A DNA stretch of 64,000 nucleotides from Methylotenera sp. (GTDB lineage: Bacteria > Pseudomonadota > Gammaproteobacteria > Burkholderiales > Methylophilaceae), in NCBI GenBank assembly GCA_030652995.1, contig JAUSAG010000015.1:55111-119110 (forward strand), given 5' to 3'. Below are positions 1 to 5,195 of the stretch, in pieces. Every line of letters begins with the position of its first letter. Position 1 is the stretch's first letter. The notes beneath the pieces are model-generated. The model worked only from the letters and a program-made list of their open reading frames with translations. It did no database searches and was not told the DNA's origin. The position numbers and the translations under genes were made by a program.

Positions 1-1163
1 TTGTGAATCACTTGTGTTGCTTTGATAGCTTCTGCAAAAGCCTCGCGTGAGTCAATGGTATGCACAATAAGGCCACGCCCGGAAAATTCACGTTGAGCTT
101 GAATCAACAGGTCTATTCGATCAACGATGAAATAGAACTTTGGTATTACGTTTTGACGCTGAAAGTAATCAGTTAAAAATCTTACGTTGTAATAGGCAAG
201 CGCTGTTTTTCCACTGCCTTGTGTATGCCAGATAATACCTTTTCTAATGCCTTCATCTAATTTCTTTTCTATGGCCATGGTGGCGAATAGCTGTGGGTAG
301 CGCATTACATGTTTTTCTAACCCATTAACTTCATTTACATAAGCTAAAGCATACTGTAATACAAATGAAAGGCGATCTTTGTTGAATAGTGATGTGCAGA
401 TGCGATTGGTTGGTGTATCAGGTGATTTATTGCTAATAAATTCCGGACTGTGCTTGATGACATTCAGGTTGTTATCTTTTAATACGGCATTTTCAATTTC
501 ATCATCTTCGGCAGACAGTAGTTCGTCCAGGTTGAGTTGTTGCTCTTCGCGGAAGTAGTTGAATACAGGTGTGTCGTATGATGGACTGGCATAAAAAGCA
601 CCCTCGATTGGTTGTGGTGAACCATCGTCATATTCCATGTTGTTTGAAAACACCATCAATTGAGTAATGTTCACAAAGCGACGGAACCTTGGATTTTGGC
701 AGCGCGTAATAATACGGTTACGCTCAGCTAGAACGCCCTCTTGATTATTTGGTTTTTTCACCTCAATAAATATCAAAGGCATACCATTAATCAGCAGAGT
801 AATGTCTGGGCGGAATTCATCATCACCATTTTTATACGTCAGCTCTGTAACAACATTAAAGGTATTGTTGCTAAAGTCAGTGAAATCGATAAGCCTTGCG
901 CCTGAACGAGCAGTGAGCTTTTCATAAAAAGCTTTACCAAGGTCTTCGTTGTCTAGTGATAGTTTGACGTCTTCAAGCAAACGTTCAATATCAGCGCTTT
1001 CAATACCAGGATTAATCTTGGCAATTGATTCTTTGAAAGTGTCTGGAAAGATATTTGTGTCTAGATCCCATGTCGCGTTTTTTAGCGACAGGTACTCATA
1101 ACCTAATCTGACCAAATGAAGGATGCAAGGTATTTTTACTCTCGAGTCTTCTGTAAATTTCAT
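1..1163 (-). CDS. hsdR: Type I restriction endonuclease subunit R (HsdR), truncated by window start
   Basis: Open minus-strand frame from ATG at 1163 running off the window; translation begins MKFTEDSRVKIPCILHLVRLGYEYLSLKNATWDLDTNIF and contains the nuclease-like RPDITLLINGMPLIFIEVKKPNN and Walker A-like WHTQGSGKTALAYYN. Confidence 0.9.
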   Translation of the reverse strand, partial: MKFTEDSRVKIPCILHLVRLGYEYLSLKNATWDLDTNIFPDTFKESIAKINPGIESADIERLLEDVKLSLDNEDLGKAFYEKLTARSGARLIDFTDFSNNTFNVVTELTYKNGDDEFRPDITLLINGMPLIFIEVKKPNNQEGVLAERNRIITRCQNPRFRRFVNITQLMVFSNNMEYDDGSPQPIEGAFYASPSYDTPVFNYFREEQQLNLDELLSAEDDEIENAVLKDNNLNVIKHSPEFISNKSPDTPTNRICTSLFNKDRLSFVLQYALAYVNEVNGLEKHVMRYPQLFATMAIEKKLDEGIRKGIIWHTQGSGKTALAYYNVRFLTDYFQRQNVIPKFYFIVDRIDLLIQAQREFSGRGLIVHTIDSREAFAEAIKATQVIH

Positions 1164-1216
1164 TATCACCTCTTAAATTGTGCGTTATAGCGTAATGCTG
1201 CGCTGCAAATTATTAA

Positions 1217-3076
1217 TTATTCCCAGTCGCCAAAATCAACCTGAAATATAGATTTTTTTGTTTCTTCATTATTTTTAAGTGGATATTCTTCTTCACCTAG
1301 ATTCCAAAAATTAGCGGCTACTTTTGTTTGTTTATTGATTAGAAGGTCAATTTCAACTTGTATTGCAGCTTCTTCATCAAGAGCATTTGCTATGGCAGAT
1401 TGTTCTTCTGGCGAGGGTATAGCAATTGGTAGTCGTAGTAGCTCTCTCAGTTGAATCAGCTGGATTGTTGCGCCTGTAACCATGGTCTTAAGTAGTTCTT
1501 GACCTAGGTCCGATCTTAGATATATCAACAGAGAACGAGGGTCAATTTTTGATTGAGCATCGACACGCAAAATTGTTGCTGATTGACCTGCCACCCATCC
1601 GCCACTGCCTTGTTCTGGCACATTCTTAGGTACTATACCTACTTTGCCCACACTACCTTTAACTATGAGAACAATATCAAGTGGTTTTAGAAATTGATGT
1701 TTATTTTTTTGTGCAATTTCAGAGTCAATTTTTACAGTGCGTCCAGTTGTTTTGATATAACCAAATTTAGGCAAGTCCGCTGCACCAACTTCAAGCGCCT
1801 CAATATATTGTTGAGACTCCTGTATTGTCGGCATTGGACGCACAGTGCTGGCTAAATCACCTAATGATTTAGTTTGTTGAGAGGATAGAATTATCTGGAT
1901 TCTCTTTGAAGAGTCAGCTAGTAAATATCTGCCAACTAGTAGTTGAGCATCATTCTCAATGACAGAGCTCGTTGGAACCATTGCAGCATCACTATCACGT
2001 GATCGACCTTGAGCTATGTTTAGCAGGTTGTCTACGTTGGTTAATCGTGCTCTTGCTTTTGAAATGTGCTCTTTAAATTTCTCATTGTCAGCATTCACGA
2101 ATCTTATTTCTTGATGACCACCGCGCGGATCTAATACTAAAATTGACATCGCAATATTAGAAAAAGAAAATAGGCCAGAAGGTAATGAAATGACTGCTTC
2201 AACAATACCTTTCTGAATTAAGTCTTCTCTCAATGCTTTTTCATATCCAGGGCTTGAGAGTAAGGTATTGGGTGCTGCAATAACAACTCTTGTTTTTGTT
2301 TGTGCAAGTAAGTGGCGAATTGTAAGTACAATTCCAGAGTTAGTACGTTCAATAAAGCGACCAAACCAATCACGATCATATGTTTCAAGATCGTAGCGCA
2401 AACCAAAAGGCGGTAAGGCAACAGAGGTGTCAAATTTACGCAATTTACCGTTATCAATTGCTAGGGGTGCCGTAATTGGATCTGTATAAACTACAGTAAG
2501 GTTTCCACCTAACAATACACCTACCAAGGCAGGTAGCGCGGAATGTATTTGAGTCTCAAGATATACATTAGCTTCTGTTTTTAAAGCGCGGCCTGCTAAC
2601 TGAGCACCAAAATCCCACGGAGTATATACCGTCATATTGGAGTGGCTTGATATTAGGCCCATCATTAAATCAGCAATTTCTTTCGGAATTGATGGGTCGC
2701 CTGAGTGGCGAGATGTTGTTAGACTAACTGCGTCTGTAGGATCCAGCTTTTCTAGCATGCCTGTTTCGCCTAATTTAATACACATATCAATAATCTGGCG
2801 AAGACCGATAAATTCTGAGTTCGGCGAAATTTTTAACCCTGCAAACGCTTGGCCCATAATTCCGTCATTTTTAGAGAGAGTATCAAGAGTAGATTTCAGC
2901 TCCTGAGTATCGATACCCCGCATATTTTGGATTTGAATATCTGATTCGATACTGTTACTAAAAGATAACTTAGTCCACGCTAGTAGCTGCAGTGCGAAAA
3001 CTAAAGAATCAGACTCTGAATATGGTGCGCTAGTCCGTACCGAATCGAATACTTGCCAAATTATTTTATCGTTCAT
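1217..3076 (-). CDS. N-6 DNA methylase-like (HsdM) / HsdS-type specificity domain fusion; SAM and catalytic motifs appear degenerate
   Basis: 619 aa; HsdM-like fold segments (ALPPFGLRYD, APNTLLSSPGYEKALREDLIQKGIVEAVISLPSGLF) followed by one HsdS-type TRD (LKPLDIVLIVKGSVGKVGIV ... QLRELLRLPIAIPSPEEQSAIANAL). Confidence 0.8.
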   Translation of the reverse strand: MNDKIIWQVFDSVRTSAPYSESDSLVFALQLLAWTKLSFSNSIESDIQIQNMRGIDTQELKSTLDTLSKNDGIMGQAFAGLKISPNSEFIGLRQIIDMCIKLGETGMLEKLDPTDAVSLTTSRHSGDPSIPKEIADLMMGLISSHSNMTVYTPWDFGAQLAGRALKTEANVYLETQIHSALPALVGVLLGGNLTVVYTDPITAPLAIDNGKLRKFDTSVALPPFGLRYDLETYDRDWFGRFIERTNSGIVLTIRHLLAQTKTRVVIAAPNTLLSSPGYEKALREDLIQKGIVEAVISLPSGLFSFSNIAMSILVLDPRGGHQEIRFVNADNEKFKEHISKARARLTNVDNLLNIAQGRSRDSDAAMVPTSSVIENDAQLLVGRYLLADSSKRIQIILSSQQTKSLGDLASTVRPMPTIQESQQYIEALEVGAADLPKFGYIKTTGRTVKIDSEIAQKNKHQFLKPLDIVLIVKGSVGKVGIVPKNVPEQGSGGWVAGQSATILRVDAQSKIDPRSLLIYLRSDLGQELLKTMVTGATIQLIQLRELLRLPIAIPSPEEQSAIANALDEEAAIQVEIDLLINKQTKVAANFWNLGEEEYPLKNNEETKKSIFQVDFGDWE

Positions 3077-3093: not shown

Positions 3094-3366
3094 TTAATGG
3101 CGACGCTTGTCACAATTGTATGTCGTAATGAGTGCGTCATTGTCAGCCACAACTACTACGCCACCTTTGTCTAGTATTTTCATTAGCAAACGTTCTTCAC
3201 GATGAATGCCTTCAAGTCTGGCTAAAGCTTCTTTCCTGCCAAAAATGTATTTACTGTTTTCAGGGGTGCCGTTATCTAAAACATACTCAACCATATCGCG
3301 GCTAACACCTCGTTGAGACATACGTTGCTGAATGTGCTTTGTTTTGTGCATTGATGTATCCTCCAT
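3094..3366 (-). CDS. DUF4258 domain-containing small protein
   Basis: 90 aa, HIQQRMSQRGVSRDMVEYVLDNG...; same strand directly upstream of the M-S fusion. Confidence 0.6.
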   Translation of the reverse strand: MEDTSMHKTKHIQQRMSQRGVSRDMVEYVLDNGTPENSKYIFGRKEALARLEGIHREERLLMKILDKGGVVVVADNDALITTYNCDKRRH

Positions 3367-3493
3367 GAACAGAACTATAATTAATTAAAAACTTACTGTC
3401 AACGGTTAATTAAATCTTTTTTAAATATTTTTGTGTTTTTTATTAAATTCTAATAACCAAGTGACAGGTCAGTTTGTTTATAATTAGGGTTTA

Positions 3494-4299: not shown

Positions 4300-4947
4300 A
4301 TGAAATCAGAAAAGTCTGATCTAGATACAACACTTTTGCGATGTAATGAGCTGCATTCAATAATTACCAATGAAGTCTATTTGTTAGAGCATGACCATAT
4401 TATTAGAGATTTACTTACTAAGTGTTTAGCAGGCATTTCATTTGAACATTCAAAAAGCATTATGTTGCTGATGGCCGCCCATAACTACACAACAGCTGTT
4501 TCATTGTTGAGGCTTCAATATGAAGCGGTAGCAAGAGGTATGTGGCTACACTTTTCAGCGAAAGATAATTTTTTGAATAAATACGTTGGCCCCATCGATA
4601 TCAAAAAACTTCCTCCTGACTTTCCCACTGTTACGGAAATGATTGATCAAATCACAAAAGGCCCGGTAAAGGGGCCAGGTGAAATGCTTCAACAATTTAA
4701 AGATGTGACTTGGAGTGGCATGAACAGCTATGTCCATAACGGATTTCTTCCAATTGAGCGGTTTCTGAACGGTTATCCAAATGAATTGCTTGTTCAAATT
4801 ATGCAAAGCTCGAATGCTTTGAATATCATGATCGCTATGGTCTTGGCGCGAATGAGTGGAGATATGAGCAGAATTAATTTAGTAAAGCAGCTACAAGTTG
4901 ATTTTAAGGATTGTTTACCTAAGCTTGAAGCTATACCTGCAAGCTAA
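4300..4947 (+). CDS. Hypothetical protein, DUF6988-like
   Basis: 215 aa; HNYTTAVSLLRLQYEAVARGMWLHFSA region typical of the family. Confidence 0.55.
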   Translation: MKSEKSDLDTTLLRCNELHSIITNEVYLLEHDHIIRDLLTKCLAGISFEHSKSIMLLMAAHNYTTAVSLLRLQYEAVARGMWLHFSAKDNFLNKYVGPIDIKKLPPDFPTVTEMIDQITKGPVKGPGEMLQQFKDVTWSGMNSYVHNGFLPIERFLNGYPNELLVQIMQSSNALNIMIAMVLARMSGDMSRINLVKQLQVDFKDCLPKLEAIPAS

Positions 4948-4949
4948 AA

Positions 4950-5195
4950 CTAGATTTCAACTTTATCTATTAATGTCGACGCATTTACACCAAGAGCACT
5001 GGCAATTTTTAGCAGATTCATAATAGCTAAATTGTGCTCACCTCTTTCAATGCCACCCATGTAAGAACGATCAATCCCAGCTATCTCAGCTAGAGCTTCC
5101 TGAGATAAGCCTTGAGCCTGTCTTGCTGCACGAATAGCAACGCCCAATCCAACAAGAGCAGGGTTCCCAGAGAATGATGGTGATTTTTTAGCCAC
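4950..5195 (-). CDS. XRE-family helix-turn-helix regulator
   Basis: 81 aa with HTH: GVAIRAARQAQGLSQEALAEIAGIDRSYMGGIERGEHNLAIMNLLKIASALGV. Confidence 0.85.
   Translation of the reverse strand: MAKKSPSFSGNPALVGLGVAIRAARQAQGLSQEALAEIAGIDRSYMGGIERGEHNLAIMNLLKIASALGVNASTLIDKVEI

Follow-up and report, generated by a model that had tools for sequence, protein, structure and literature searches.

The 64,000-nt window analysed here (C24:55111-119110 of a 2.66-Mb genome) carries, beside hsdR, an HsdM-half-HsdS fusion (M1/2S) whose methylase motifs are lost, and it raises the question of what such a protein does in a type I restriction-modification (R-M) operon. The first-pass annotation had placed a fusion of this kind at 1217-3076, with apparently dead methylase motifs, a single TRD that might depend on dimerisation, and HsdR next to it. 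Our analysis agreed on each of these points, with the ORF at exactly these coordinates on the minus strand and the dimer as a probable state (Table 1). Judged from its sequence and its surroundings, M1/2S is most likely a switch that controls restriction operons rather than an enzyme.

Table 1. Coordinates of the operon and its promoter region (plain positions count from the first letter of the window; C24 positions refer to the contig).
Feature	Position	Strand	Description
hsdR, N-terminal part inside window	3..1169	(-)	389 aa; HSDR_N nuclease, SWI2/SNF2 ATPase
hsdR, full gene	G000:C24:53187-56279	(-)	1030 aa; read past window edge
M1/2S, HsdM-half-HsdS fusion, predicted catalytically dead	1217..3076	(-)	619 aa, ATG start; Pfam, motif scan, alignment, AlphaFold2
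DUF4258 small protein	3094..3366	(-)	90 aa; Pfam DUF4258 (PF14076) 8.2e-8, 32.9 bits vs cut-off 25
Predicted sigma-70 promoter of operon	3374..3402	(-)	TTGACA (3402-3397), 17 nt, TATAGT (3379-3374)
Conserved candidate operator stretch	3397..3416	(-)	Imperfect: AGAT-TTAAT-TAAC; A-tract present
Perfect inverted repeat TTATTA-N5-TAATAA	3440..3456	(-)	Same N5 geometry, ~46 nt before -35, not at the conserved place; AT-rich region
hsdM	C24:51559-53193	(-)	544 aa, DPSAGSG + NPPF; outside window
hsdS	C24:50364-51566	(-)	400 aa, two TRD stretches; outside window
SLFN_AlbA_2 protein gene	C24:49049-50371	(-)	440 aa; outside window
288-aa protein gene	C24:48176-49042	(-)	Sub-threshold match only; outside window

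The Pfam search showed that the N6_Mtase match (PF02384) in M1/2S was limited to residues 211-387 (5.5e-18), covering profile positions 122-305 and leaving the motif I part of the profile unmatched, and that the Methylase_S match (PF01420) at residues 439-568 (9.9e-7) corresponded to one TRD, not two. The protein comprises an N-terminal helical region (about residues 1-125), a pseudo-methylase (about 126-388), the TRD (about 400-560) and a C-terminal helix (about 556-597). A motif scan of the whole protein found neither a DPxCGSG nor an NPPF/Y string, and in an alignment with real HsdMs VYTPWDFG fell on motif I and LPPFG on NPPF, with the Asn replaced. NPPF or NPPY was present in each neighbouring HsdM translated in full. 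The first-pass annotation had named an intact motif in an alternative alignment as grounds for refutation, and we found none. We examined 12 full-length homologues from Gram-negative bacteria and Cyanobacteria, and every one had lost both motifs, which rules out a sequencing or annotation error. We infer that M1/2S no longer methylates, and its single TRD points to a probable dimer. The AlphaFold2 model, of moderate quality (pLDDT 72, pTM 0.61; former motif IV loop below 50), gave type I HsdM or MTase structures as its best PDB matches (7eew, PacII, 2okc, 3lkd and 7vru), with 7eew, an MTase solved with Ocr, at the top. Neither M1/2S nor the DUF4258 protein had an HTH match in Pfam. Identity of M1/2S with MADS (MAD5) was rejected at 44.8 bits against an NCBIfam cut-off of 400.

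Reading the window together with the sequence to its left (L004), we obtained the minus-strand gene order DUF4258 - M1/2S - HsdR - HsdM - HsdS - SLFN/AlbA_2 - 288-aa protein. The hsdR gene was intact once read beyond the window edge, hsdM and hsdS followed it directly at 3-6 kb from the M1/2S gene, and the HsdR, HsdM, HsdS and SLFN genes overlapped. The resident type I system is complete, with HsdR, HsdM and HsdS all intact, and the motif-less M1/2S is therefore an addition to it. The first-pass annotation had proposed looking for a canonical hsdM left of the window, and one is there; its idea of a type I-like complex lacking methylation did not hold, because an intact hsdM and a two-TRD hsdS lie in the operon of hsdR and the resident system is therefore not methylation-free. 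An AlbA-like protein was also found in the R-M operon of L048, and the 288-aa product of the last gene showed a weak match to the HYD1-type ADP-ribosyltransferase family (L004 3066-5261, equal to C24:48176-50371, holds the last two genes). A HipA-like/HTH gene pair and an IS30-like transposase lie just past the operon (L004 2-1602 and 1789-2856), which gives the region the look of a mobile defence island. On the other side, window 4300-4947 (+) encodes a DUF6988 protein matching the PADLOC candidate defence family PDC-S52 at 4.7e-57, adjoined by an HTH gene at 4950-5195 (-).

Relatives of M1/2S were found in Proteobacteria, Cyanobacteria and Campylobacterota. Plasmid tblastn returned full-length or nearly full-length copies from Oscillatoria, Aromatoleum, Geminocystis, Cyanobacterium, Annamia, Aliivibrio and Sulfuricurvum and a diverged one from a Synechococcus plasmid, and in Roseovarius and Roseomonas the protein is divided over two genes. 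A genome scan gave four loci, namely L047 (alphaproteobacterial MAG, 46%), L048 (Pseudomonas psychrophila, 45%), L049 (Oxalobacteraceae, 40%) and L050 (Paraburkholderia), the last with an M1/2S fragment at a contig end. A DUF4258-subfamily gene lay directly upstream of M1/2S in the window and in L028, L029, L034, L035, L047, L048, L064, L065 and L068. Among these, L068 (DUF4258-M1/2S-HsdM-HsdS-HsdR) is the strongest case of linkage, since it was found by a scan with DUF4258 alone. No DUF4258 gene was found at the M1/2S loci L030-L033, L049 and L070-L072; L049 has a transposase-like ORF upstream of M1/2S. M1/2S usually lies beside a complete type I system, with L030, L032, L033 and L035 away from any annotated R-M operon. 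The module is rare, with a full-length match in 1 of 369 genomes of the class (the window's own), and E. coli gave no DNA match to it. A phage origin was rejected, as 50,697 phage records held no DUF4258 relative and the only module locus in IMG/VR was on a contig carrying a whole R-M operon. DUF4258 plus M1/2S is best explained as a separate, mobile leader module that became attached to numerous type I operons unrelated to one another.

The DUF4258 gene ends 17 bp upstream of M1/2S, and its conserved part begins at the ATG at 3351. DUF4258 is listed among the RelE/ParE (BECR-fold) toxin families, with target unknown (PMC11980606); the structure model of the protein was poor (pLDDT 67, no PDB match), and open-access papers yielded no report of DUF4258 together with R-M. 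The subfamily also heads other small operons, including ones on plasmids of Aeromonas, Acinetobacter, Moraxella and Azospirillum (L058-L063, L066, L067), where it precedes an LRAT-family-like protein and viperin (L063, L066), LRAT, AAA and PIN proteins (L062), DUF3944 (L061), or a GIY-YIG nuclease near a DUF4007/cysteine desulfurase locus (L067). Defence operons in general may use DUF4258 as a leader gene.

The listing of DUF4258 among toxin families would allow a guard module, an explanation that we consider unlikely, in which a BECR-fold toxin would be held inactive by M1/2S acting as a decoy for phage anti-restriction proteins (Ocr, ArdA), and a phage protein on the decoy would free the toxin, as happens with PrrC upon EcoprrI inhibition. 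This would fit the position of DUF4258 directly before M1/2S at most loci, the Ocr-associated top structural match and the existence of the R-M guards PrrC and PARIS (PMC12707154). However, M1/2S occurs without DUF4258 (L030-L033, L070-L072), DUF4258 leads operons without M1/2S (LRAT/viperin, GIY-YIG), and promoter palindromes, described below, are left unexplained. The coupling of a possible toxin to a type I complex recalls PrrC/EcoprrI, but PrrC watches an active R-M enzyme, whereas the pair here would be a separate dead M1/2S and a small DUF4258 protein. A guard or toxin role of DUF4258 is nevertheless compatible with control of the promoter by M1/2S, and both could hold, as in toxin-antitoxin pairs.

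Comparison of the five closest loci (the window, L047, L048, L049 and L068) showed that their M1/2S proteins were 35-52% identical over their length, whereas the HsdM pairs reached 23-30% over parts only, the HsdS pairs 22-28% or no match, and the HsdR pairs 22-31% over parts or no match. On these identities, the HsdM, HsdS and HsdR beside the closest M1/2S genes come from different type I subfamilies. M1/2S might still be a working subunit of the resident enzyme, for instance an additional specificity unit that partners the active HsdM or directs HsdR to a different site, given that its gene shares the hsdR/M/S operon, that its M and TRD folds are retained in the model, and that HsdM is able to form complexes with fused M-S proteins (PMC3510504, PMC6158711). 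We consider this improbable, because partners of differing subfamilies make specific subunit contacts unlikely and some copies have no R-M partner nearby.

The predicted operon promoter of the window is strong, matching the consensus at 11 of 12 positions of the -35 and -10 boxes, and aligns with the promoters of homologous loci. In the homologues, an A-tract is followed by RGTA-N5-TACY centred 9 nt before -35. This pattern, which was noticed first and tested afterwards, was present upstream of five of the ten DUF4258-M1/2S operons (L047, L048, L068, L028, and L029 twice), against a background of 1.05% of 475 upstream regions from the same loci. Its centre lay exactly 9 nt before -35 in L047, L048, L068 and L029, with the second L029 site between -35 and -10; in L028 it lay beyond -10. 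L034, which has a more diverged TRD, carried GTTA-N5-TAAC at the identical offset (-9 from -35), and L065 had a different sequence 3 nt further off. No palindrome was found at the conserved place in L035, L064 or the window (score 0/6 in the window). For the ten DUF4258-M1/2S promoters the best-pattern statistic was 5, whereas 200 shuffled sets never gave more than 4; when all 17 M1/2S promoters were taken, diverged ones included, it did not exceed the shuffles. The -9 offset was shared by four promoters (L047, L048, L068 and L034) in which 5 or more of the 6 pairs were complementary, and none of 5000 shuffled sets had more than 3; a positional test on the mean score was weaker (176 of 5000 shuffles). 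The geometry of 3-bp half sites and a 5-bp spacer matches that of ACC-N5-GGT, the site recognised by an engineered HsdM-half-HsdS fusion that dimerises (PMC6158711).

A further possibility is that DUF4258 itself binds the promoter as a small leader repressor and M1/2S does something else. The DUF4258 gene comes first in the operon, a position that RptR takes in type I operons of its own (PMC12255303), and it leads other defence operons, some with other palindromes near the promoter. However, none of the eight DUF4258 operons that have another second gene in place of M1/2S contained RGTA-N5-TACY, and M1/2S leaders lacking DUF4258, both in Firmicutes, had comparable AGTA palindromes: AGTAA-N5-TTACT twice in L072, on either side of the promoter, and AACTTAGTAT-N5-ATACTAAGTT in L070. 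These results suggest, in a small sample, that the palindrome goes with M1/2S and not with DUF4258, and leave direct control by DUF4258 with little probability.

Identity of the four closest loci to the M1/2S of the window was 48-58% in the TRD, 43-51% in the pseudo-methylase and 26-30% at the N-terminus; a TRD conserved to this degree while the HsdS of the same loci share at most 28% points to one fixed target rather than changing specificity. At the former motif sites, homologues from Proteobacteria to Cyanobacteria have new residues in common, VYxP[WYF]D and xPP[FML], and V150, Y151, P153, W154, D155, P222 and P223 are invariant in the five loci. That M1/2S is a relic of a fused hsdM-hsdS, drifting after loss of activity, would agree with the missing motifs and with its rarity in the class, but this pseudogene reading was rejected as highly improbable on conservation, given intact frames of 550-630 aa at no fewer than 12 loci of several phyla, the new residues common to the homologues, and a TRD among the best conserved parts.

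Our preferred reading, to which we give moderate confidence, is that a dead M1/2S dimer within the DUF4258-M1/2S leader module autoregulates the promoter of the type I operon in the manner of a C protein. M1/2S without methylation activity would dimerise and use its TRD to read a palindromic bipartite site, which is GTA-N5-TAC in most of the relatives where such a site is clear. The bound site would lie next to the -35 box of the promoter that the genes share, and binding would determine how the operon as a whole is expressed, much as C proteins act in type II systems. Binding might repress the promoter, or M1/2S might instead activate it or work as an on/off switch like a C protein; DUF4258 might serve as toxin, co-regulator or both. 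Among the options listed by the first-pass annotation, repurposing as a sensor or regulator is the one that we judge right, with the regulator role itself predicted. More doubtful is the wider proposal that an entire lineage of type I M-S fusions forms a dedicated class of transcription factors. These would read a bipartite site with a TRD dimer, and their DNA-binding surface and cofactor pocket, now empty, would sense phage anti-restriction proteins or another ligand and switch on restriction, perhaps with a putative DUF4258 toxin, during infection. If autoregulation by M1/2S is true, the DNA-reading part of a restriction enzyme would have turned into a transcription factor, and the module would offer a testable case in which regulator, partner and DNA site are all predicted. 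Open-access papers yielded no report of a catalytically dead M-S regulator.

Several known systems share features with the proposed regulator. C proteins likewise exert autogenous control from a site upstream of -35, with a second between -35 and -10 as in L029, but they are small helix-turn-helix proteins, whereas M1/2S is a 600-aa R-M derivative without an HTH. MTase-repressors of type II systems, such as SsoII and Ecl18kI, are R-M modification proteins that double as transcription regulators; they retain enzyme activity and carry an additional HTH domain, whereas M1/2S is probably dead and its TRD is the likely DNA reader. RptR is the first gene of type I R-M operons and represses its own promoter through palindromes, but it is a 79-aa all-helical dimer on TAGCTA and differs from M1/2S in size, domains and site (PMC12255303). 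RptR was also rejected as the identity of the leader gene, which matches DUF4258 and is associated with RGTA-N5-TACY rather than TAGCTA; RptR was set apart by its description. M1/2Sfus of S. aureus CC398-1 joins HsdM to one TRD, forms a dimer, as M1/2S probably does, and reads palindromic 3-bp half sites with N5 like the promoter palindromes here (PMC6158711). It is, however, an engineered, active methyltransferase, whereas M1/2S is natural, lacks motif I and NPPF, and heads a complete type I operon; half-HsdS dimers have been likened to homodimeric regulators (PMC6158711).

In the methylase-domain tree, the Gram-negative and cyanobacterial M1/2S leaders were separated from all canonical HsdMs at a fork with 99/99 support, on long branches that make the deep placement unsure. 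The Firmicutes leaders and a 1323-aa Acinetobacter protein fell with the canonical HsdMs; a single origin of all dead M1/2S leaders is thus unsupported, and similar losses may have arisen more than once. The Acinetobacter protein (L073 6203-10174, on an A. ursingii plasmid) combines an N6 methylase region with DPCFGTG and HPPVG, a TRD, and an ATPase-like region at its C-terminus. Its gene shares an operon with hsdR and a gene for an ATP-binding protein, and the stretch contains neither hsdM nor hsdS as a separate gene. The Firmicutes type I operons (Lactococcus, Lactobacillus and Salimicrobium) begin with an HsdM-half-HsdS fusion (L070 6593-8395, L071 6117-7946 and L072 6665-8563) that has lost the NPPF consensus (VPPFG, FPPIN and NFPFG) and kept more of motif I.
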